Assembly: GCA_022564935.1 (NCBI GenBank)
Contig: JADFKM010000024.1
Coordinates: 1-28,563 of the forward strand
DNA: 28,563 bases
Direction of reading: 5' to 3'
Source of the DNA: Candidatus Dadabacteria bacterium
Lineage (GTDB): Bacteria > Desulfobacterota_D > UBA1144 > Nemesobacterales > JADFKM01
Within the stretch, counting starts at the first letter, position 1; the number at the start of each line of letters is the position of its first letter. Shown piece after piece: positions 7,448 to 21,098 of this stretch. Position numbers and translations under genes: made by a program. Below the pieces are notes generated by a model. The model worked only from the letters and a program-made list of their open reading frames with translations. It was not told the DNA's origin and made no database searches.

Positions 7448-7692
7448 GAAGACTGGCCGTGTTTATCAAAAAAATCCTTTACTTCGGCTTCCTTGGCAAA
7501 ATCACCACGTCGGGCGGCCTCCACTCCTTTCTGAATATGGGCGAGTTGCCATTCGTGAAGCTCGATGTACTGGTCAAGCGCCTCATTGATAACAGCGCTC
7601 AGATTTTTTCCGAAGGCTCTGGCTATACCATCCAGGCGTTTGCGCTTTCCTGTCTGTGTTACAAAGGAAATTCTGGTTGAATCTTTCGGCAT
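7444..7692 (-). CDS. ribbon-helix-helix (CopG-type) antitoxin
   Basis: The 82-residue product begins with a beta-strand and helix (STRISFVTQTGKRKRLDGIA), followed by GKNLSAVINEALDQYIE, the ribbon-helix-helix pattern used for DNA binding. The charged C-terminal tail (about 50-82) would wrap and neutralise the toxin. A ribosome binding site AGGAG lies nine bases upstream (complement at 7702-7706). It is the first gene of the toxin-antitoxin operon and is likely autoregulated through the dyad at 7718-7746. Confidence 0.87.
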   Translation of the reverse strand: MPKDSTRISFVTQTGKRKRLDGIARAFGKNLSAVINEALDQYIELHEWQLAHIQKGVEAARRGDFAKEAEVKDFFDKHGQSS

Positions 7693-7717
7693 TGGTAATA
7701 ACTCCTGTATATTATCT

Positions 7718-7746
7718 AATAATATACTATCATATAGTGTATTATT
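7718..7746 (-). promoter_or_regulatory. 29 bp dyad operator for the toxin-antitoxin operon
   Basis: The left arm AATAATATACTAT (7718-7730) and the right arm ATAGTGTATTATT (7734-7746) are complementary at 12 of 13 positions around a 3-base centre. The dyad sits 26 bp upstream of the antitoxin start and is AT-rich enough to overlap the promoter. Ribbon-helix-helix antitoxins typically repress from such sites. Confidence 0.65.
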
Positions 7747-7771
7747 TTTAAAGGGCTTCGTTTTTGCAACA

Positions 7772-8127
7772 GTATATATGTGAAAATTTGGGCACGTCCT
7801 AAATGGCAGAGTTACAAGAATTAACTTGGGTCTGTAAAAATAAGGGGCAAAACTACGAAATCGGGATGATCCTATTCTAAATATTCAAATAACCAAATGA
7901 TCAAGCACAGTCATGGACGCACGGCGCGGGCGAAAAGGGCGTTTAGAGGAGCTGTTAATACTAATCCGTACAAACTGTAACTAACTGAATTAGCAATAAG
8001 ATTCTTAAATTAATCCACCTATCCCAACATTTACATATCCACCCAAATGGACACCAAAGGTGCAAACCAAGAAGAAGGAGACTCGTCAGTTATTGACCTA
8101 ACTCCTCTAAAACACAGAAGATAATAG
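7772..8127. other. gene-free stretch between the island and tRNA-Arg
   Basis: I see no full gene. Two short plus-strand frames look peptide-like: about 25 residues from ATG 7803 to a stop at 7878-7880, and about 28 residues from ATG 7898 ending near 7980. Neither has a clear ribosome binding site, and they may be remnants of a degraded gene. No second copy of the tRNA 3' end, which would mark an attachment site, is visible. Confidence 0.35.
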
Positions 8128-8203
8128 TGGCGGGCGATGGGGGATTCGAACCCCCGACCTCTGGCTTCGGAGGCCAGCACTCTATCCACTGAGCTAATCG
8201 CCC
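8128..8203 (-). tRNA. tRNA-Arg (anticodon CCG)
   Basis: Read on the minus strand, the 76 nt gene begins GGGCGAT, pairs with ATCGCCC at the acceptor end, and ends with an encoded CCA (complement TGG at 8128-8130). The D-arm has TTAGCTCAGTGGATAGAG, and the T-arm has the GGTTCGAATCC loop with a 5 bp stem. The anticodon stem CTGGC/GCCAG encloses the loop CTCCGAA, giving anticodon CCG, which reads the arginine codon CGG. The recombinase/toxin-antitoxin island lies on the 3' side of this gene, a common place for integration. Confidence 0.96.
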
Positions 8204-8240
8204 ATACTATACACTAAACTACCCAAGTGATATTTTAATT

Positions 8241-8289
8241 TATCGGCACACAAAGTAAACTCTGCCGATATTATCCGGCATGATATAAT
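8241..8289 (+). promoter_or_regulatory. inverted-repeat operator and -10 box ahead of the AhpD-ArsS cluster
   Basis: TATCGGCA (8241-8248) and TGCCGATA (8263-8270) form a perfect 8 bp inverted repeat with a 14 bp centre. A third half-site, CCGGCA, ends at 8280, giving TGCCG-8-CGGCA. A perfect -10 hexamer TATAAT lies at 8284-8289. The repeat covers the -35 zone, so a dimeric regulator bound there would control the downstream cluster. I cannot name the regulator. Confidence 0.5.
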
Positions 8290-8303
8290 CAAGGAGTTGA
8301 GCA

Positions 8304-8362
8304 ATGAAACGTTAACCCCCGCGTTGCATCTAAATATCGGGGTGTGCGCTCAAGCGTTTTTT
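8304..8362 (+). promoter_or_regulatory. leader with a mini-ORF and a terminator-like hairpin
   Basis: AAGGAG (8291-8296) is correctly spaced before ATG-AAA-CGT-TAA (8304-8315), a three-codon reading frame. Downstream, CGCGTTG (8320-8326) can pair with CAAGCG (8351-8356) with one bulged G, directly followed by six T residues (8357-8362). This looks like a possible attenuator in front of the AhpD-like gene. The stem is weak, so the idea is tentative. Confidence 0.25.
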
Positions 8363-8386
8363 CAATTACATCAAGGAGGAGCTGTT

Positions 8387-8719
8387 ATGGGTGATTACTA
8401 CAAGACTGAGCACCTCGCCGACTTTGGCAAGATAAGTGAAGGGAACGAGGAGCTGGCACAAAAATTCTTTTCTTATTATAACTCAGTTTTCGAGGACGGG
8501 GCCCTTTCCGTGAGGGAGAAGGCCCTCATTGCCCTTGCGGTGTCCCATGCGGTGCAGTGTCCGTACTGCATCGACGCCTACACGAAGGAGTCGCTCCGGC
8601 AGGGGGCCGACCTCGAGCAGATGACCGAGGCCGTTCATGTCTCCACAGCGATCAGGGGCGGGGCGTCGCTCGTACACGGCTTGCAGATGCTCGAGCAGGT
8701 AAAGAAGTCTTCGATGTAG
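8387..8719 (+). CDS. AhpD/carboxymuconolactone-decarboxylase-like protein of the arsenosugar-associated type
   Basis: With the ATG at 8387 (AAGGAGGA at 8373-8380) the protein has 110 residues; a longer frame from TTG 8297 has unlikely leader-derived residues. It has the AhpD/CMD helical fold, with CPYC in SHAVQCPYCIDAYTKESLRQG (Cys about 65 and 68) and a C-terminal RGGASLVHGLQML. In AhpD the residue four after the second Cys is His; here it is Tyr. This CPYCIDAYT form is typical of the small peroxidase-like proteins encoded beside ArsS-type radical SAM enzymes, some of which are selenoproteins; this copy uses Cys. The ArsS-like gene follows after 41 bp. A redox or thiol-arsenic role is inferred from the neighbourhood. 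Confidence 0.85.
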   Translation: MGDYYKTEHLADFGKISEGNEELAQKFFSYYNSVFEDGALSVREKALIALAVSHAVQCPYCIDAYTKESLRQGADLEQMTEAVHVSTAIRGGASLVHGLQMLEQVKKSSM

Positions 8720-8760
8720 TTTGCAGGTTCGGACTGCTCTAAAACCAGATGGAGGTTCGT

Positions 8761-9906
8761 ATGGCTGAGATCCCCGTGCGGCTTGGAAATTTTGCCGGGG
8801 ATGATATTGACCTGACGAGCGCCGAAGCGGGCCCCAAGGGCACCACGACGCTCAGTGCAAGGCGTCTTCCCCTAGCCGATGCGCGCTACCAAACCCGTGT
8901 TCTTGAGTCTCTCGACCTTTCCCATGCCCCCAGTGACGGCAGGTTCGAAAAAGCCGTCGAGACAAGTGGGCTTGCTCCGCTCAGACCCTCGAAGCTTGAG
9001 ATATTCCAGATAAACGTGGGGAAGCTCTGCAACATGACCTGCAGGCACTGCCATGTGGACAGCGGCCCCGACCGCATCGAAGAGAACATGGACAAGGAAA
9101 CTATTAACGCCTGCCTCCGGGCGCTCGACAAAACCGAAGCCCACACGGTAGATATCACCGGAGGCGCGCCGGAGCTGAACCCCCATTTCGCCTACCTCGT
9201 GGAGGAGTGCGTCAAACGGGGCAAGCACATTATCGACCGCTGCAACCTCACTGTGCTGCTGCTTCCCCGTTTCAGGGAGCTTCCGCAGTGGCTGGCTCAG
9301 AGAAAGGTCGAGTTGGTTTGCTCTCTCCCGCATTACAGGCGCAGGAACACAGATGCGCAGAGGGGCAAGGGCACGTTTGAGAGATCCATAGAGGCATTGA
9401 AGCGGCTGAACCGTGTGGGCTACGGGAGCGGCGACCCCGACAGGAGGCTCACGCTTATGACCAATCCCGTGGGCGCTTACCTCTCCGGCTCCCAGGCGTC
9501 GATGGAGCGGGAATGGAAAGAGCACCTTTCAACGAAACACGGCGTGCGTTTCGACCGCCTCATTACAATTAACAACATGCCGATATCGCGTTTTCTGGAG
9601 TGGCTCGAAGAGTCGGGCAATTTGCAGTCCTATATGGAGCTTCTTGTAAACTCATTCAATCCCGCCACAGTGCCGGGGCTGATGTGCCGGAACACGCTTT
9701 CGGTGTCCTGGGACGGGAAGGTCTACGACTGCGACTTCAACCAGATGCTGGAGCTGGAGTCGGTTGCCTCCGACGGGAAACGCCCGACCGTATATGATTT
9801 CGACCCCGCCGGGTTTGCCAACCGAGATATAGTGACTGCGAGGCACTGTTTCGGGTGCACCGCCGGGGCGGGAAGCTCCTGCGGGGGCGCGATTGAAGGG
9901 GATTGA
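8761..9906 (+). CDS. arsS: ArsS-like radical SAM enzyme with C-terminal Cys-rich domain
   Basis: I choose ATG 8761 over ATG 8749 because GGAGG (8751-8755) is properly placed only for the former; the product has 381 residues. An N-terminal extension of about 75 residues precedes the radical SAM core. The iron-sulfur motif CNMTCRHC is at about 90-97, followed by HVDSGPDR and ITGGAPELNP. The C-terminal part has CRNTLSVSWDGKVYDCDFNQ and ends in CFGCTAGAGSSCGGAIEGD, the Cys-rich (DUF3641-type) signature of arsenosugar biosynthesis radical SAM proteins, which add a 5'-deoxyadenosyl group to dimethylarsenite. The partner AhpD-like gene is directly upstream. No arsM methyltransferase is in the window, so the true substrate may differ. 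The TGA stop is not followed by a plausible selenocysteine extension. Confidence 0.85.
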   Translation: MAEIPVRLGNFAGDDIDLTSAEAGPKGTTTLSARRLPLADARYQTRVLESLDLSHAPSDGRFEKAVETSGLAPLRPSKLEIFQINVGKLCNMTCRHCHVDSGPDRIEENMDKETINACLRALDKTEAHTVDITGGAPELNPHFAYLVEECVKRGKHIIDRCNLTVLLLPRFRELPQWLAQRKVELVCSLPHYRRRNTDAQRGKGTFERSIEALKRLNRVGYGSGDPDRRLTLMTNPVGAYLSGSQASMEREWKEHLSTKHGVRFDRLITINNMPISRFLEWLEESGNLQSYMELLVNSFNPATVPGLMCRNTLSVSWDGKVYDCDFNQMLELESVASDGKRPTVYDFDPAGFANRDIVTARHCFGCTAGAGSSCGGAIEGD

Positions 9907-9973: not shown

Positions 9974-11422
9974 TTGATAAGTATTTATAGAAGATTACTG
10001 CAAGCATCTATAATTTTAGCTTTTCTAGTAAGCATCTCGTTATGGGATGCGAGAGCCGAAGACGATATAGAGAGGCTTCAGGAGCAGCTACAGGGGGTCT
10101 TGGAGAGGCTCGACAGGGTCGAGAGTGAAAACACGCGTTTAAGAGAGCAGGTGGAGGAGCTGAACAGGTGGCTCAAGGAGAAGGAGGGAGCGGAGCCTCA
10201 GCCCGCGCCCCATCAGAAGCCGCGGCATACTCCTGCGAAGCCCGGCTCAACTGACGGTACACTCATCGATACTCCCCAGGTAGATGATATAGCGAGGGAA
10301 GCTACGTCTGATAGCGAACTGGAGGGGGACAAAAAACCCGGCCCCGAATTCGGGCTGCACCCCGGTGGAGGGGGGTTCTTCTTACGCGGCGAGGACTACC
10401 ATTTCCGCCTTCTTGGATACGTGCAGGTGGTGGGCTCTGTTTTTGACGACTCGCTGGACAGGGGCGACGGCATGGGAGATTTTTCCATCCGCCGCGCAAG
10501 GCTCGATTTCCTTGCTACATTGTTCGAGAAATGGGAGATCTTTATCGAGATAGACGGCGGCCCGGGGACTGCGAACGCCGAGGACTCCGATTTCGCCCTT
10601 GTAGAGGCCTGGCTCAACTGGCAGATTGTCGGCAAGGCCCTGCAGCTGCGGGTGGGGAAGTACGTGATACCGTTCAGCGAAGAGAACTCCAGGAGCTCAA
10701 GGGACTTCGACACGGTGGAGCGTTTCCTGGCGCTAAACAGCATGTTCCTGCTTCCGGCGCTCGACGTGCAGTTCGGCGGCATGGTTCACGGCGTTTTAGG
10801 GAATGGGGACTGGATCAAGTATTTCCTGGGGATTTATAACGGAAACGGCAGGGCTAACTCGAATTTCTCCGACAACAACAGCGACAAGGAGATACTGGCC
10901 AAGCTCAAGTTCAAGATTTATGAAGGTTTGACCGCGGGCGTGGCGTTTGATTACAGCAAGGAGAGAGAGCAAACCCTCAGCCTGTTCGACCTGGGGTTCG
11001 ACAGGTACGTGTCCGTGACGATTGAGGGAAAGCGTATTGGCATTGGCGGCGACATCTTCTGGCGCCGCGGCCCGTACAGCTTCAGGGCCGAAGGGCTGGT
11101 CTTTTATTTCGACTCGCCGCAGGGCGACGACGTGGGTCTGCTCGGCGGCTTCGTGCAGCCCGCGTATTTTATCTTCGGCGATTCCCTCGGAGGGCTGCAG
11201 CTTCTTTTCCGGACGGAATTGGCGCATCTCGACGCCGACACGGGCACTGACGGCGACACGCTCTGGGCGTTCACCGGGGGCATAAACTGGTTCGTGAACC
11301 CCAACGTGAGGCTGCAAGTAGACGGCATCTACCACTACTTCGACGGCCCGTCTTCGATCCGGGGTTTCGGGGACGGCAGGTGGGTGCCTATGCTCCTCAC
11401 CGAGCTTCAGTACAAATTTTGA
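9974..11422 (+). CDS. OprO/OprP-like outer-membrane porin with coiled coil
   Basis: The 482-residue product starts at TTG 9974, with AAGGGAG (9961-9967) upstream. It has a signal peptide (about 1-28, ending DARA-E), a trimerising coiled coil (about 30-66), a long Pro/Lys/Asp-rich low-complexity linker (about 67-125) and a phosphate-selective-porin-type barrel (about 140-482) with typical segments: RRARLDFLATLFEKWEIFIEIDGG, LRVGKYVIPFSEEN, GGINWFVNPNVRLQVDGIYHYF. It ends in Phe (LQYKF). OprO/P porins pass phosphate or pyrophosphate; arsenate is a phosphate analogue, so its place between arsS and a symporter suggests uptake or release of an oxyanion or an organoarsenic compound (inference). It is unrelated in detail to the porin at 1263-2588. 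Confidence 0.88.
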   Translation: MISIYRRLLQASIILAFLVSISLWDARAEDDIERLQEQLQGVLERLDRVESENTRLREQVEELNRWLKEKEGAEPQPAPHQKPRHTPAKPGSTDGTLIDTPQVDDIAREATSDSELEGDKKPGPEFGLHPGGGGFFLRGEDYHFRLLGYVQVVGSVFDDSLDRGDGMGDFSIRRARLDFLATLFEKWEIFIEIDGGPGTANAEDSDFALVEAWLNWQIVGKALQLRVGKYVIPFSEENSRSSRDFDTVERFLALNSMFLLPALDVQFGGMVHGVLGNGDWIKYFLGIYNGNGRANSNFSDNNSDKEILAKLKFKIYEGLTAGVAFDYSKEREQTLSLFDLGFDRYVSVTIEGKRIGIGGDIFWRRGPYSFRAEGLVFYFDSPQGDDVGLLGGFVQPAYFIFGDSLGGLQLLFRTELAHLDADTGTDGDTLWAFTGGINWFVNPNVRLQVDGIYHYFDGPSSIRGFGDGRWVPMLLTELQYKF

Positions 11423-15306: not shown

Positions 15307-15338
15307 TTGACTCTGTAGTATAGTACGGACTTTATACT
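15307..15338 (+). promoter_or_regulatory. mer-type promoter and MerR operator
   Basis: TTGACT (15307-15312) and TATACT (15333-15338) are separated by 20 bp, longer than the normal 17, as in promoters activated by MerR through DNA distortion. Between them lies a dyad, CTGTAG-TATA-GTACGG, close to the classic mer operator (CCGTAC...GTACGG) with two mismatches in the left arm. AAGGAGG and the merR ATG follow, so the promoter drives merR and the genes downstream in one direction, not divergently as in Tn21 and Tn501. No other clear feature is seen in the 180 bp upstream. Confidence 0.85.
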
Positions 15339-15366
15339 TATAAGAAACGTAAAAGGAGGCGTGACC

Positions 15367-15774
15367 ATGCAGTCGCTGACGATTGGAAAAGTCGCCCGTC
15401 TGGCCGGTGTCGGGGTCGAGACGATCCGGTTCTACGAGCGGCAAGGTCTGATTGCCGAGCCGCCCCGCAAAGAGTCCGGCTATCGGCAGTATCCTCAACA
15501 GACGGTTGTCAGGGTGCGCTTCATCCGGCGCGCCAAGGAGCTTGGGTTTACTCTCAAGGAAATAAATGAGATGCTCTACCTTCGTATCGATCCGAACACG
15601 ACCTGCGAGGAGATACGTGTGCTGGCGGAGGCAAAGAAAGTCGATATCGAGGAGAAGATCCGAGCACTTCAAAAGATAAAGGAAGCTCTCGTGAAACTCC
15701 TAGCGACCTGTGAGGGGAGGGGCCCAGTCAGCGAGTGTCCGATACTTGATTTTCTTGATCAGGTGGAGAGCTGA
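15367..15774 (+). CDS. merR: MerR, mercury-responsive transcriptional regulator
   Basis: The start at ATG 15367 fits AAGGAGG (15353-15359). The 135-residue protein has the winged helix-turn-helix (LTIGKVARLAGVGVETIRFYERQGLI), the RYP-like hinge GYRQYP, a long dimerisation helix, and the three cysteines that define mercury-type MerR: Cys80 (NTTCEEI), Cys115 and Cys124 in ATCEGRGPVSECPIL. These correspond in spacing to Cys82, Cys117 and Cys126 of Tn501 MerR, which bind Hg(II) between subunits. It overlaps the next gene by one base. Hg(II) response is the best guess; a related soft metal cannot be excluded because no mercuric reductase is present. Confidence 0.92.
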   Translation: MQSLTIGKVARLAGVGVETIRFYERQGLIAEPPRKESGYRQYPQQTVVRVRFIRRAKELGFTLKEINEMLYLRIDPNTTCEEIRVLAEAKKVDIEEKIRALQKIKEALVKLLATCEGRGPVSECPILDFLDQVES

Positions 15775-16193
15775 TGATACCCACAAACGAAGGTCGCATC
15801 AGGCTGGAACGCCCCCTTGTTCAGCGGCTTACCGGCTTCGCAACCCTGTTTACTTCCACTGGCACATTGGTTTGCTGCGTCCTACCAGCAAGCGTTGCTG
15901 CCCTGGCAGGTGGCTCAGCAGTTATAGCGTTGACGAGCACCTTCCCGTGGCTTATTCCCCTTTCCAGGCATAAGGATTGGATATTTCTCGTGGCGGGGCT
16001 GATGCTTTTATTTAACGGATTTCTTTTGTTCCGTCCCAAGGGTACGGTCGCCTGCGCGGTCACCGGCGGTAGCGGCTGCGAGGTGGCCGGTCGCTTCACG
16101 ACAGTCATGTTCTGGAGTTCAGTGGTGATTGTTGGAATCGGGGTATTTATCTCCTATGCAATCGTGCCCATTCTGCGATGGTTGGAGACCTGA
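15774..16193 (+). CDS. merT: MerT-like mercuric ion transport membrane protein
   Basis: This 139-residue protein has three to four transmembrane helices and a vicinal pair Cys34-Cys35 in TLVCCVLPASVAALAGG, like the first-helix CC pair of MerT, plus Cys94 and Cys102 in VACAVTGGSGC, in the place of MerT's loop cysteines (spacing 8, not 6). MerT passes Hg(II) from the periplasm to the cytoplasm. Its start overlaps the merR stop codon by one base (TGATG), so the two are coupled. The usual periplasmic partner MerP is replaced by the HMA proteins further downstream. With no MerA to reduce imported Hg(II), transport direction or metal may differ from the classic system. Confidence 0.8.
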   Translation: MIPTNEGRIRLERPLVQRLTGFATLFTSTGTLVCCVLPASVAALAGGSAVIALTSTFPWLIPLSRHKDWIFLVAGLMLLFNGFLLFRPKGTVACAVTGGSGCEVAGRFTTVMFWSSVVIVGIGVFISYAIVPILRWLET

Positions 16194-16196
16194 AAC

Positions 16197-17042
16197 GTGC
16201 TAAGCATAACGTTAATCTATCGGATGTATCCACTGCCCCTATCAGCTTTGCTAATTCTTGTGGGATTGCTTTCCACGCCCGTCCTGGCCCACGAGCCGGT
16301 GTTCAGCCTGGGGCCGGAGACAATTTTTGAGGGCGGTTTCGGTATCGAGGTAGAGTTCGAGTTCGAGGATGCAAAAGGCGAACAGCTTGCGGTGATGAAT
16401 TATGAAATCCTGTACGGGCTGAAAGACAATCTGTCACTCATCTTGAAGGTGCCGCAAATCCTTGGACGGGAGGTGGGAGGTGAGACAGAACGTGGCCTGG
16501 GGGACATCGAGTTCCGAACCAAATACCGCTTCTTCAAGAGAGATACGTTGGGCGCTCAGAACAAGGTGTCGGGCATCTTCGGGATTAAGGTGCCAACTGG
16601 CGATGACGATGCGGAGCCGGCGCTCGGGACCGGGACTACCGATTTTCTCTTCGGTGGGAGCTACGGGTATGAATCCCGAACTTGGTATCACTTTGCTACT
16701 GCCCGTTATCGGTTTCGCACCGAGAGCGGTAGTCGCGATCCAGGTGACCGGTTGTTTATCGATGGGGCGATTGGCTACCGGCCGTGGCGGCGCGAGTACC
16801 TCGAATGGGATTTGGTCACGCTGGTTGAAATGAACACTGAATTTGAGTTTAAGGACGAATTGAGGGGCGTTCGGCTACCTGATACAGGGGGTAACATAAT
16901 CTGGCTCGGTCCAACGGCATTGTTGTCGTACCGGAACATCATGTTTAAAGGAGGGGCTCAGTTCCCGGTGTATGAAAATCTGAACGGGAACCAAGACAGC
17001 AGCAGCGTTCGTGTCGTCTTTGCTGCCGAATACCACTTTTAA
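16197..17042 (+). CDS. outer-membrane beta-barrel protein in the mer-like operon (first copy)
   Basis: The 281-residue product starts at GTG 16197, 3 bp after merT (GGAG at 16184-16187); ATG 16224 is the alternative. It has a signal peptide ending TPVLA-HE and then alternating amphipathic strands, ending in Phe (AAEYHF). It resembles the outer-membrane transporter family annotated as MetA-pathway of phenol degradation-like. A KVPTGDDDAEP loop is shared with the barrel at 19893-20792 (KLPTGDDDLEP), so the two are paralogues. A barrel in a mer-like operon suggests a trans-envelope route for a metal or a metal carrier, which is inference. Strong translational linkage to merT supports a joint role. 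Confidence 0.78.
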   Translation: MLSITLIYRMYPLPLSALLILVGLLSTPVLAHEPVFSLGPETIFEGGFGIEVEFEFEDAKGEQLAVMNYEILYGLKDNLSLILKVPQILGREVGGETERGLGDIEFRTKYRFFKRDTLGAQNKVSGIFGIKVPTGDDDAEPALGTGTTDFLFGGSYGYESRTWYHFATARYRFRTESGSRDPGDRLFIDGAIGYRPWRREYLEWDLVTLVEMNTEFEFKDELRGVRLPDTGGNIIWLGPTALLSYRNIMFKGGAQFPVYENLNGNQDSSSVRVVFAAEYHF

Positions 17043-17074
17043 TTGCATTGCATGACTTAAAAGGAGTTAAATCG

Positions 17075-17716
17075 ATGATAAAAAATATCATTATTATGCT
17101 AAGCGCTTTTGTTCTGACTGTTGTGCTGCCCGTGCTGCCCGCCCATGCCCAAGTAGAGCAGTTAACCCTGCGAGTGGATGGCTTAGCATGCCCATTTTGC
17201 GCCTACGGATTGGAGAAGAAAATTAAGAAGCTCGAGGGCTACAAATCATTTGAAGTATTGATTAACGAAGGCAAGACAATTATGGACTGGCACGCAGATA
17301 AGACTCTTGACCTGGGTGCAATTCATGATGCGGTGCGCAAGGCCGGTTTCACTCTCCGCGGTATTAAAGGGCGTTTTGTAGGTATGGTCACCAAAGAAAA
17401 TGGCAAGTACATGCTGGTGTTGCCTTCACCCCTTAAACAGCGTTTCTACCTGTATGAAGAGGTAGCACTTGCATCCAAAACCCATGGGAAGGGGGAGGAC
17501 GAAAAAGACTCTTGGAAACATGGTCACGAGAAAGAAGGCATGGACGAAGCTCTTACCAAACCATCCCGCGAACTTCTAGACCGGGCTATCGACGACAAGA
17601 CGGTGTTGCGGATTGTTGGGTCAGTCCACGGCCATAAAGATCCGGTGGTTCCACCATCAATTGGTATAGAGAGCTTGGAGATTGTGTCATCAGCAGGTAA
17701 TGAAGGAAATAGGTAA
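17075..17716 (+). CDS. periplasmic HMA-domain protein with CPFC motif (first copy)
   Basis: ATG 17075 is chosen because AAGGAG (17061-17066) fits; the protein has 213 residues. A signal peptide (about 1-25, ending AHA-Q) precedes a heavy-metal-associated domain (about 27-90) with the metal-binding CPFC at Cys39 and Cys42 in DGLACPFCAYGLEKK. The second half (about 98-213) is a small beta-rich domain with a His-rich, charged insert (about 145-170, including KHGHEKE) and a VGSVHGHKDP segment. MerP carries only the HMA part, so this is an extended MerP-like protein. The C-terminal domain is shared with the next gene and with the remnant at 20883. Soft-metal binding in the periplasm is likely; the metal is inferred to be mercury or copper-like. 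Confidence 0.85.
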   Translation: MIKNIIIMLSAFVLTVVLPVLPAHAQVEQLTLRVDGLACPFCAYGLEKKIKKLEGYKSFEVLINEGKTIMDWHADKTLDLGAIHDAVRKAGFTLRGIKGRFVGMVTKENGKYMLVLPSPLKQRFYLYEEVALASKTHGKGEDEKDSWKHGHEKEGMDEALTKPSRELLDRAIDDKTVLRIVGSVHGHKDPVVPPSIGIESLEIVSSAGNEGNR

Positions 17717-17757
17717 CACGAAAACCAACTATAAAAACAGGAGAGGAGGTATTGGTC

Positions 17758-18315
17758 ATGAGATTTAGAAAACTGATATTGGTTTTAGGGATATTGGCTC
17801 CGGCGCTTATGTCCCTTCAATCCGCATTTGCAGAGGTAAATCGTGTCGATATGCAGGTAGATGGAATGACTTGTCCATTTTGCGTATATGGAATTGAAAA
17901 GAAGTTAAAGGCTCTACAAGAGGTTATAGATGCCGAAGCGAATCTAAAGACGGGGATAGTAGATATTGAATTAAATGAAGATGAATCGCTTGATATAGAG
18001 AGGCTTAACGAGGCAGTTCGCGAGAGCGGATTCAGTCCCGGGAGAATAAAGATAAAAGCCACTGGGAAACTAACCAAATACGAGTGGGGAGAAAAACAAT
18101 ACCCGGCTTTAAGAGTTACGGGTTCCAGACAAGTATTTATCATTTCACCAACACCTAACCACGAGAAAGAAGAATTTCTCGGCGAGAAGAAATTAAGTGA
18201 GATGGAAAAAGCAACAGAGGGCGGAAAGAAGGAAATTACAGTAACAGGGTATGTCCATTCGCACCCGGCAGGTGTTCCACCGGCTTTAAGTGTGGAGAGT
18301 TTTGAGGTCCAGTAG
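17758..18315 (+). CDS. periplasmic HMA-domain protein with CPFC motif (second copy)
   Basis: ATG 17758 follows GGAGG (17745-17749); the protein has 185 residues. Its layout repeats that of the previous gene: signal peptide (about 1-26, ending AFA-E), HMA domain with Cys39 and Cys42 in DGMTCPFCVYGIEKK, then a C-terminal domain (about 96-185) with LRVTGSRQVFIIS, GKKEITVTGYVHSHP and VESFEVQ. The two proteins have clearly diverged and probably arose by duplication. The DNA is more AT-rich than merR-merT. It follows the first copy by 41 bp in the same operon. Two tandem metallochaperone-like proteins beside a barrel suggest metal relay or sequestration in the periplasm. Confidence 0.86.
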   Translation: MRFRKLILVLGILAPALMSLQSAFAEVNRVDMQVDGMTCPFCVYGIEKKLKALQEVIDAEANLKTGIVDIELNEDESLDIERLNEAVRESGFSPGRIKIKATGKLTKYEWGEKQYPALRVTGSRQVFIISPTPNHEKEEFLGEKKLSEMEKATEGGKKEITVTGYVHSHPAGVPPALSVESFEVQ

Positions 18316-18434
18316 GAGTGTAGCGTTTTTTCTTGCTCCTTACTGTAGCAATTAGGCCAAAAGAATTTGTGTTCCAATTATGAGCAAGCTTTTTTCAGTC
18401 TTAGTGCTTTATGAAATGATGAAAAAATAGAAAG

Positions 18435-18779
18435 ATGATTATAAGAAGAATCGAAGTTAAAGACGCCGAAGACATCAAAGAGAAAGGAAAGGCGGGGTTA
18501 AGCCTTGCAGCCCTATTCTTTTCTCTTCCTTGGTGCTGCATAATGCCTGCGGCTTTTTCTGTGCTTAGTTTTATAGGTGCAGCAGGGACAACAAGGCTCG
18601 TTTTTAAAGAGGCCCTCTTCCCACTTTTTATCGTTTCTATTCTCCTTTTAGGTGGGGCTCATTATCTGATTTATTTTAAAAAGCATGGAAGCAGCTTAAG
18701 TAGTAGAGTCGTGGTTTGGATCTCTACGATTGGAGCTTTGGCTCTATGGGCTTTTAGATTTGGGATAATAACTGCTTAG
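18435..18779 (+). CDS. second MerT-like small membrane protein with CC motif
   Basis: This 114-residue protein has three predicted transmembrane helices. Its first helix contains SLPWCCIMPAAFSVLSFIGAAG, with Cys34-Cys35 at the same positions as in the MerT-like protein at 15774. It lacks the second cysteine pair. Such CC-first-helix proteins are seen among MerT relatives and other small mercury or metal transport proteins. It is AT-rich and lies 119 bp after the second HMA gene, without a strong ribosome binding site. It appears to open the second module (CC protein, NHL, barrel, HMA remnant). Transport is inferred from the cysteine pair and the context. Confidence 0.65.
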   Translation: MIIRRIEVKDAEDIKEKGKAGLSLAALFFSLPWCCIMPAAFSVLSFIGAAGTTRLVFKEALFPLFIVSILLLGGAHYLIYFKKHGSSLSSRVVVWISTIGALALWAFRFGIITA

Positions 18780-18835
18780 AATGAGTGTGGTGAGTTGGGC
18801 ATTTGTTACAAGGCAGAATTAATTAAGGTGCCGTT

Positions 18836-19810
18836 ATGAAAAGAAAATTAAAGTACTTGCTACCTTTGATAGTTATTGCTGTAGGGATTTTCTTGCTTAA
18901 ATCCGAAGCAGGTGCTGGAGAAATTCCTAAAGTAAGGTTTTTACTCGAGTGGGGAGCTTACGGAACTGGCAATGGAGAGTTTAATCAACCTATTGGAATA
19001 GCGGTTGACAAGGAGGGATATGTATATGTATCCGATTCTGGAAATAATCGGATACAAAAATTTTCAAACGATGGGAAGTTCATTCTAAGCTGGGGAGAAA
19101 AAGGATCGAAAGAAGGACAACTTGATATCCCAATGCATATAAATGTGGACGGTGAAAATAATCTTTATGTCACTGAGTATGGAAATGATAGAGTTCAAAA
19201 ATTCACCTCCGACGGGAAGTTCCTTTTGATTTTTGGAAGAACTGGAGAAGGTAGGGGTGAGTTTGATGCACCTTCAGGCGTAGCGGTTGATAAAGGCGGG
19301 AGCATTTATGTTGTTGACTTCTATAATCATAGGGTTCAGAAATTTTCTGCCGAGGGAACGTTCCTCCTTCAAATAGGAGAACCGGGACAGGTGATTAACG
19401 GCAAATTGCACTATCCAACAGATGTCAATGTTGGCTTGGAGGGCAATGTTTATGTTGCAGATGCATATAATAACCGTATTCAGGTGTTTAGTTCTCAAGG
19501 GGCATTTGTACGTAAGTGGGGAGGGGCTTTGGGGCGGGGAGATAAAGGGGATTTGAATGGTTGGTTTAATGTTGCAACAGGTATAGGCATAGATACAGAA
19601 GGGAGAGTTTACGTGGCTGATTTTGATAATCATCGTATTCAGATATTTGACCGGAAAGGGAACTTTATTACCTCTTTTGGCACACGGGGTTCGGGTTCTG
19701 GGGAATTTGAGCGCCCCACAGATGTAACGGTGGATAAGCATGGAAATATTATTGTAGTAGATTGGGGTAACAATCGAATTCAGAAGTTTTCTATAGAATG
19801 GGAGAAGTAG
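18836..19810 (+). CDS. exported NHL-repeat beta-propeller protein
   Basis: The 324-residue product has a signal peptide or anchor (about 1-28) and six NHL repeats of about 45-50 residues, each with the pattern GxAVDxxGxVYVxDxxNxRIQKFxxxGxF, so it folds as a six-bladed propeller. The blades begin near residues 40, 90, 137, 187, 240 and 287. NHL propellers serve as binding or scaffold domains, and some are enzymes; no catalytic residues can be named here. It is AT-rich, starts at ATG 18836 with AAGGTG upstream, and sits inside the second metal module. It could be a periplasmic scaffold for the barrel and HMA proteins, which is speculative. Confidence 0.87.
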   Translation: MKRKLKYLLPLIVIAVGIFLLKSEAGAGEIPKVRFLLEWGAYGTGNGEFNQPIGIAVDKEGYVYVSDSGNNRIQKFSNDGKFILSWGEKGSKEGQLDIPMHINVDGENNLYVTEYGNDRVQKFTSDGKFLLIFGRTGEGRGEFDAPSGVAVDKGGSIYVVDFYNHRVQKFSAEGTFLLQIGEPGQVINGKLHYPTDVNVGLEGNVYVADAYNNRIQVFSSQGAFVRKWGGALGRGDKGDLNGWFNVATGIGIDTEGRVYVADFDNHRIQIFDRKGNFITSFGTRGSGSGEFERPTDVTVDKHGNIIVVDWGNNRIQKFSIEWEK

Positions 19811-19842
19811 AATTTTCTCTTGAGCTTCCACCATACCCTACC

Positions 19843-19864
19843 ACTCATAATAAGGTTTATGAGT
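19843..19864 (+). terminator. hairpin between the NHL gene and the second barrel
   Basis: ACTCATAA (19843-19850) and TTATGAGT (19857-19864) form a perfect 8 bp stem with a 6-base loop, with nearby bases (ACC/GGT) extending it past a bulge. No U-run follows, so it may be an mRNA processing or stability element instead of a true terminator. It lies just before the AAGGAG of the next gene. Confidence 0.4.
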
Positions 19865-19892
19865 TGGTAAATAAATAAGGAGCACAGCCAAG

Positions 19893-20792
19893 ATGTTTAA
19901 AAAGAATCTTGTGGCTTTTTGTATGCTATTCCTTTCTATATTATTTATAGCTCCAGCAAATGGCGTCTTAGCTGCTGGTATAAACACCAATGTCGCCCTT
20001 CCGGTAAGGAAGGGAGGTTTTGTTTTCCGCTCTCAAGCGAGGTGGCTCAGAGCCACAGATGACTCAACATCCCTTGATAGAGAGGTTAACGTGGTTGCAA
20101 TTCCAAATGTGCTTGTTTATGGCGCAACGCCTGACTTGTCCCTTTTTGCCATTGTTCCTTATATCTTTAGAAACGTAAAATTTACAGACCCTTCATCTGG
20201 AAAGAGAACTGAGAAAGATGATAATGGAATAGGTGACAGTATTTTACTAGGTCGTTACACGGTTTATGCCAGAGATTATCCATCGGGGACAGCTAGGTTT
20301 GCCCTCATAGGGGGTATAAAGCTCCCTACTGGTGATGACGATCTAGAGCCAATTACAACTGAGTCAATTGATTTCCCTTTAGGTTGGGTATCAACTGTAA
20401 CCTGGGATTTCGGCAGGCATGAGCTGGACGCGGATTTTATCTACAGGATCAACACCGAAGCGGACGATTTCGAAAAGGGGGATGATTTGGTTTACGACCT
20501 TGCTTATGAGTTTAGGGTTTATCCATGGACATTGCCTGAGGTCGGCGCTCCCAATTTTATATACTTAGTGGCTGAAGCGAATGGCATTTATTCACAAAAA
20601 GGTGAACTTGATGGTAAGACAATAGAAAACTCAGGCGGACATACTCTATTTCTCTCCCCGGGAATTCAGTTTGCATCTAAGCGTTATATTCTTGAGGCAT
20701 CAATTCAGCTTCCAATAATTCAGAGCCTCAATGGCGCACAGGTGGAAACGGATTTTATCCTATCGGCCGGCATCAGAGTAAATTTGCCGTGA
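19893..20792 (+). CDS. outer-membrane beta-barrel protein (second copy)
   Basis: The 299-residue product has a signal peptide (about 1-28, ending LA-A) and a barrel of alternating strands. It shares with the 16197 barrel the motif KLPTGDDDLEP, a preceding GIGDSILLGRYTVYARD segment like GLGDIEFRTKYRFF, and a matching C-terminal ordering (LEASIQLPIIQSLNGAQ versus FKGGAQFPVYENLNGNQ). The two are therefore paralogues of the MetA-pathway-like outer-membrane family. Unlike the first, it ends in Leu-Pro and not in an aromatic residue. AAGGAG (19877-19882) precedes ATG 19893. Its place after the NHL gene and before an HMA remnant repeats the MerT-barrel-HMA order. Confidence 0.78.
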   Translation: MFKKNLVAFCMLFLSILFIAPANGVLAAGINTNVALPVRKGGFVFRSQARWLRATDDSTSLDREVNVVAIPNVLVYGATPDLSLFAIVPYIFRNVKFTDPSSGKRTEKDDNGIGDSILLGRYTVYARDYPSGTARFALIGGIKLPTGDDDLEPITTESIDFPLGWVSTVTWDFGRHELDADFIYRINTEADDFEKGDDLVYDLAYEFRVYPWTLPEVGAPNFIYLVAEANGIYSQKGELDGKTIENSGGHTLFLSPGIQFASKRYILEASIQLPIIQSLNGAQVETDFILSAGIRVNLP

Positions 20793-20882
20793 TGAGAGCT
20801 TACAGGGGGTAAAAATTATGGTCAGACGTATAGCTTAGATGTTGTGCGCATTCTCTATGTAATTTTTTCCCGCTAAGCGCTT

Positions 20883-21098
20883 TTGCTGAGATTGAGAGTA
20901 ACAGGCACAGAGCAGGTTTTTATTCTGAGTGTGACTTCAGGGAACGGAAAGGAGGAGTTCGTAGGGGGAGAAAAACTCCATGAGATGCAAAAAGCCGCTG
21001 AGGACGGAGGCAAGAAAATTTCTATAACCGGTTACGTCCAGGGGAACCAAAAAGGACTTCCCCCGTATTTGAGAGTTGAGAGCTTCGAGGTTAGCTGA
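20883..21098 (+). pseudogene. remnant of a third HMA-family protein (C-terminal domain only)
   Basis: This 71-residue frame (LRVTGTEQVFILS..KEEFVGGEKLHEMQKAAEDGGKKISITGYV..LPPYLRVESFEVS) is clearly homologous over its whole length to the C-terminal domain of the HMA protein at 17758-18315. The signal peptide and HMA domain are missing. An in-frame stop (20874-20876) lies just upstream, and only TTG 20883 could start it. About 65 bp earlier, a ribosome-binding-like GGGGG and ATG (20818) open a six-codon frame, possibly the old 5' end. The simplest reading is an internal deletion in a former gene. A standalone expressed domain is less likely. Confidence 0.65.

Follow-up and report, generated by a model that had tools for sequence, protein, structure and literature searches.

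Mercury resistance in bacteria is usually read from merA, the reductase gene of mer operons such as those of Tn501, Tn21 and Bacillus RC607. Here we describe an operon composed of mer-type parts, with no merA, in a 28,563-nucleotide stretch of DNA (the window, which is the entire contig C9; GenBank JADFKM010000024.1) from a deep-branching Candidatus Dadabacteria bacterium. The operon spans positions 15307-21098, lies on the plus strand throughout and consists of eight genes, encoding in order a MerR regulator, a MerT-like membrane protein (MerT1), an outer-membrane barrel, two HMA proteins with a CPFC motif, a second membrane protein with a Cys pair (CC2), an NHL propeller and a second barrel, and the relic of a third HMA gene at the 3' end. 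The leading genes almost touch one another and the gaps further down are 56 to 119 bases long, an operon-like spacing. This gene set, its positions and its single strand had been called from the letters alone, and translations together with Pfam and NCBIfam scores bear the call out. With known mer operons the locus shares an Hg-type MerR, an operator with 19-20 bp spacing, a MerT-like Cys-pair protein and a secreted HMA protein, and merR is first in the transcript, as it is in RC607. It differs from them in lacking MerA, in having CPFC HMA proteins with an extra C-terminal domain and a MerT-like protein that falls outside PF02411, and in the addition of two outer-membrane barrels, CC2 and the NHL propeller. 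Since merA was sought and not found, we do not file the locus as a mer operon, mer-type though its parts are; we favour, with moderate confidence, the reading that it is a mercury-inducible envelope metal-handling operon without a reductase, which would carry or trap Hg(II) outside the cytoplasm and can optionally be coupled to MerA.

The regulator (15361-15774, plus strand; the likely start is the ATG at 15367, preceded by AGGAGG) is of the mercury type that the original prediction had proposed. Its three cysteines align with C82, C117 and C126 of Tn501 MerR, the eight-residue C-terminal loop is kept, and its top matches among solved structures are the Hg MerRs 5crl and 4ua1, some 20 bits above CadR and CueR; in a tree it clusters, with weak support, with MerRs linked to merA. 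The promoter/operator (15307-15338, plus strand), read directly, has TTGACT and TTATACT elements and a 19-20 nt spacer with the Mer-type dyad CTGTAgtatAGTACGG, the combination of long spacer and Mer dyad that marks mer operons. The operator sequence, TTGACTCTGTAGTATAGTACGGA, starts at 15307 and deviates at two fixed positions from the pattern of the Tn501 operator. This pattern, with two mismatches allowed, gave one match as against none in 100 shuffles, and in a genome-wide scan allowing up to three mismatches the site at 15307 was the sole one; merA operons from the same order (L020, L022) have operators like it. The regulator and operator thus point to Hg(II) as the metal sensed. Sensors of Cd, Pb or Zn can carry the same three cysteines, and any of these metals could take its place.

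MerT1 (15774-16193, plus strand) is a predicted inner-membrane protein with a Cys pair in its first transmembrane segment and a C-x7-C loop before the last. The pair is invariant in the aligned members of the family, which occurs at 29 loci, and hhalign matches the family to MerT of mer operons from the same order (93%, E 3e-7), in keeping with the earlier description of a MerT-like protein. PF02411 has no match in the window protein and weak matches in 8 of 23 relatives, and comparison with solved structures returned nothing meaningful; judged by its sequence, the family is a remote relative of MerT. Both HMA-CPFC proteins combine the CPFC Cys pair with an HMA domain above the PF00403 cut-off of 24.8 bits. 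The first (17048-17716, plus strand; 28.7 bits) has a C-terminal domain, a His-rich insert and a signal peptide assigned by reading the sequence. The second, HMA2 (17752-18315, plus strand; 48.4 bits), gave a model with a pLDDT of 87.1, in which the HMA part has the fold of CopZ and MerP (Z 11-12) and the C-terminal domain can be loosely assigned as OB-like from its strand order and weak Foldseek matches. These proteins therefore share the HMA fold and Cys pair of MerP and CopZ, and the long form found in the window differs in its CPFC motif and OB-like C-terminal domain. The genome encodes two HMA domains, both inside the operon.

The barrels have their closest described counterparts in the COG4313/PF13557 channel Pput2725 (4RL8) and in FapF (5O65). 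Barrel 1 (16197-17042, plus strand) scores 29.7 bits and barrel 2 (19893-20792, plus strand) 44.1 bits against PF13557 (cut-off 22), and barrel 2 has counterparts of 63-77% identity in the relatives G008 and G012. The model of barrel 1 (pLDDT 86.6) has 12 strands, which with its Pfam score places it among the PF13557/COG4313 channels, and it superposes on 5o65 with a Z of 25.7 and on 4rl8 with a Z of 25.6 (1.9-2.3 Å over ~232 residues); other barrels are well below, at Z 18.8. Common to all three is a 12-stranded barrel with an N-terminal segment before the first strand. Barrel 1 differs in its sequence (11-16% identity), in that nearly all members of its family have a His at the mature N-terminus (H[DE]P[VIL]F), and in its genomic setting, which is one of metal carriers and not of hydrocarbon breakdown or amyloid. 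PcoB and the Cus system handle copper across the envelope by means that include an outer-membrane part, as here, and the window differs from them in its weaker fold match to PcoB (Z 13.4) and in having no P-type ATPase or RND gene in the cluster. The mature N-terminus predicted for barrel 1 is HEPVF, and the pattern A|H[DE]P[VIL]F is predicted in 25 of 27 relatives (alignment A7; window 16224-17042). Because the first 14 residues of the COG4313 channel plug its lumen from the periplasmic side (PMC4493636), this His may lie in or near a lumen plug, and together with an E-x-H near the C-terminus it is a possible, candidate metal site. The E-x-H is likewise conserved in the relatives of barrel 1.

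The assembled genome (2.0 Mb in 104 contigs, 88.6% complete, 0.9% contaminated) has no MerA match above the TIGR02053 cut-off, the outcome of the genome-wide check that had been proposed. A merA under an identical operator, which would have refuted the original proposal, was not found either, the genome having one such operator. The best MerA-like match, on contig C100, adjoins lipB and the gene for PDH E1, lacks the C-terminal CC and was identified as dihydrolipoamide dehydrogenase (Lpd); another, on C88, is a thioredoxin reductase by its gene context. P-type ATPases are likewise absent from the assembled genome, and in its phylum 33 genomes out of 57 have none. There is no match to the HgcA model NF040863 in the genome, and mercury methylation was rejected as a sink. 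Pfam found no MerB in the cluster, to which that search was confined. The original statement that MerA, MerB, P-type ATPases and RND pumps are missing from the cluster holds; for RND pumps it does not extend to the genome as a whole, which has a CusA/CzcA-family member on contig C89. PHROGs gave no match, and a viral origin was rejected.

Similar gene sets recur elsewhere, which argues that the linkage is not due to chance. Scanning named genomes with an HMA alignment gave 329 relatives, from which we retained 80 loci; the relatives closest to the window protein are from Candidatus Dadabacteria, Desulfobacterota and Deltaproteobacteria metagenome-assembled genomes (MAGs). An HMA gene was called in 64 loci, which come from more than a dozen phyla; in 57 of them a PF13557 barrel is encoded on the same strand no more than three genes away. 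Of the genes near HMA, 67 of 359 encode barrels, as against 1 of 312 far from it. As the loci were picked by their HMA gene and not by its neighbours, the linkage to barrels is independent evidence. Near HMA in these 64 loci we also find NHL in 24, MerT1 in 19 and MerR in 19; the possibility that barrel and HMA genes are never linked to merR-merT in relatives is thus contradicted by many of them. A locus in a different phylum (Spirochaetia, L066) has all eight gene families in a single cluster (MerR, MerT1, barrel, CC2, HMA, HMA, barrel, NHL), which makes an assembly artefact less likely. These recurring parts suggest a widespread mode of handling mercury, or a metal like it, that has yet to be named. 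In the open-access literature we found no paper that connects mer genes with an NHL propeller or with such barrels, and nothing on point concerning mer without merA. The plasmid records that matched HMA or barrel most closely were set aside, as their neighbourhoods were no more than loosely similar.

How might such an operon, with predicted metal carriers for every layer of the cell envelope, work? A rise in Hg(II), or in another soft metal like it, would cause MerR to switch the operon on, and the MerT-like and CPFC HMA proteins would pass the metal on by cysteine exchange. Instead of being reduced in the cytoplasm, the metal would be kept in the periplasm or moved out through the barrel; alternatively, it might be handed to a sink not yet seen. 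MerT and MerP in the absence of MerA reportedly render cells hypersensitive to Hg (Nakahara 1979 and Hamlett 1992, cited in PMC4570782). An induced importer without a sink would on this account be costly, and since the operon appears to be mercury-induced and has no reductase, the metal is most likely kept outside the cytoplasm. A more specific proposal, a reductase-independent route for Hg(II) under control of an Hg-type MerR, leading from the MerT-like protein through HMA-CPFC to a COG4313-type barrel with an N-terminal His metal site, is tentative, and we regard true export of the metal as possible rather than probable. The identity of the metal, the direction of its flow and the role of NHL are what we infer. 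If the proposal of envelope handling is correct, surveys based on merA miss a mode of handling mercury or soft metals, and the mer system gains outer-membrane and periplasmic parts that are absent from its textbook model.

Several points weigh against this proposal. The TIGR02051 score of the window MerR, 139.7 bits, is the top score among all models and yet below the curated cut-off of 150.85, and among NCBIfam models those for CopZ give HMA2 a higher score than those for MerP. In Gammaproteobacteria and Zixibacteria the first Cys of the module-linked MerRs is replaced by R or K, and G008 and some others (Omnitrophota) use a third type of regulator beside the module, so that the metal may differ between lineages. 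COG4313 channels of assigned role take up hydrophobic molecules (PMC4493636). No component of the operon was found that would power export, and the predictions are all read from genes. MerT family members are known as importers. Finally, as the MAG is 88.6% complete, the assembly may have missed a merA. The regulators in which R or K replaces the first Cys, next to a C-x(5-9)-C loop, adjoin the module at L052, L064, L070, L082, L095 and L099, and also at L104, L110, L112, L115, L121 and L124.

The objection that merA may be missing from the assembly leads to the idea that the module serves an ordinary mer pathway as its uptake front end, in which the barrel admits Hg(II), HMA delivers it to MerT and MerA reduces it, with merA located in the missing 11% of this genome or recently lost. 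At least six loci (L050, L051, L063, L073, L101 and L125) have the module beside a MerA with a C-terminal LSCCA, and the MerAs of the four that were scanned (L050, L051, L073 and L101) surpass the TIGR02053 cut-off. The module, as HMA-barrel(-NHL), adjoins an authentic merA in Marinobacter sp. ELB17, two Betaproteobacteria, Omnitrophota, Opitutales and an Actinomycetota MAG. In the cultured Marinobacter sp. ELB17 (L125), a divergent merR is followed by MerT/MerP-like genes, merA (7529-8932), HMA (9007-9324), a barrel and NHL (10256-11236); HMA-CPFC, barrel and NHL, in that order, are what it shares with the window operon, and the differences are that the module is directly downstream of merA, that merR is divergent and that the HMA protein is short (105 aa). 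The merA-like proteins at L017, L061, L083, L071 and L020 were not counted as MerA, as they lack the C-terminal CC or score below the cut-off. G008, a relative with the module, has MerA on another contig. MerA and NHL also co-occur, MerA being present in 16 of 26 module genomes with NHL and 4 of 25 without (Fisher p 0.0014, a raw value from one of five tests, without correction for kinship or multiple testing), while MerT1 shows no association with MerA, positive or negative. The six-bladed propeller itself (18836-19810, plus strand; secreted; NHL 162.6 bits, 6 repeats) adjoins HMA or the barrel in many loci and probably serves for docking or as a scaffold, facing the periplasm or the outer membrane.

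Set against an uptake role is the finding that 31 of the 51 module genomes have no MerA above the cut-off (20 have one), including G012, which is 97% complete; in the window's phylum, 4 of 57 genomes have it. G004, a genome in one contig that is 96% complete, has a MerT1-HMA pair but neither MerA nor a P-type ATPase, and in the window's genome there is no further operator under which a merA could stand elsewhere. We consider the front-end explanation unlikely. The loci with authentic merA do not support the original view that MerA is excluded from the system as a class; a better description of the module is a mer-compatible envelope add-on, here without the reductase, which in other bacteria is added to ordinary mer operons with MerA. 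Of the different metal handling that had been predicted, the Hg-type MerR and operator, the lack of MerA and the recurrence stand, the class-wide exclusion of MerA does not, and export through the barrel is a step that we infer. The presence of module and merA together in cultured Marinobacter makes the module testable.

Another explanation is that the operon handles copper (or silver or gold), with HMA, barrel and CC proteins moving Cu(I) and MerR acting as a broad soft-metal sensor. The CopZ-like score of HMA2 would fit this, as would the R or K at the C82 position of the gammaproteobacterial and Zixibacteria regulators, which resembles two-Cys sensors, and the P-type ATPase or CcdA genes found close to some modules. 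The window MerR, however, retains the three Hg-type cysteines and a Mer operator, the same genome has a separate Cus-like RND operon, and authentic merA is the direct neighbour of the module in several genomes; copper handling is improbable in our view. A periplasmic trap feeding the pump on C89, with the barrels serving some other purpose, is very improbable: the pump gene is accompanied by adaptor- and outer-membrane-factor-sized genes and the HMA proteins are by sequence periplasmic carriers, but the constant neighbour of HMA is the barrel and not an RND gene, and the genome-wide scan found no Mer-type operator at the RND locus. The Cus-like operon on C89 (L142:2413-8716) comprises genes for a 459-aa outer-membrane-factor-like protein, a 563-aa adaptor-like protein and the CusA/CzcA RND protein, and is preceded by the gene for a small His/Met-rich protein.

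Compared with the operon of envelope parts that we favour, smaller assemblies occur in the Dadabacteria group, where MerT1-HMA (CDFC) pairs are found at L021, L026, L027 and L028 (genomes G009, G004, G030 and G020) with no MerA above the cut-off and no P-type ATPase; in G004 and G009, as in the window, a DUF255 protein is encoded a few kb away. The window operon is itself a mosaic in base composition, with a GC content at third codon positions of 0.61-0.66 in merR-merT-barrel 1 and 0.35-0.40 in HMA2-CC2-NHL-barrel 2. Because of this shift, and because G008 carries MerR-CC2-NHL-barrel-HMA by itself, the operon seems to unite two cassettes, merR-merT-barrel-HMA and HMA-CC2-NHL-barrel. The relic at its 3' end (20840-21098, plus strand), seen in three-frame translation, retains the end of a signal peptide (frame 2) and the C-terminal domain (frame 0) and has lost the HMA domain; the open reading frame at 20883-21098 is a remnant of the C-terminal domain, 58% identical to the C-terminus of HMA2, and no working gene. 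At the same place G008 has an intact HMA gene. Elsewhere in G008 (C36:784-1261, L019) an HMA-CPFC gene is broken by frame changes and stops. As an aside on the public data, contig 147921 (L105, L106) appears in two MAGs assigned to separate phyla, KSB1 and Phycisphaerae, so that its binning is in conflict.

Lastly, CC2 (18435-18779, plus strand) weakly resembles MerT of RC607 (NF033560, 28.2 bits, below the cut-off) and was found in five loci. A protein of 95% identity is encoded in G008, and the gene looks like the product of a one-gene transfer or recombination. At the DNA level, CC2 (18435-18779) is 95.9% identical to G008 L017:6854-7195, with sharp edges at the start and stop; identity is 78-79% in the genes next to it and 69% in the spacer.

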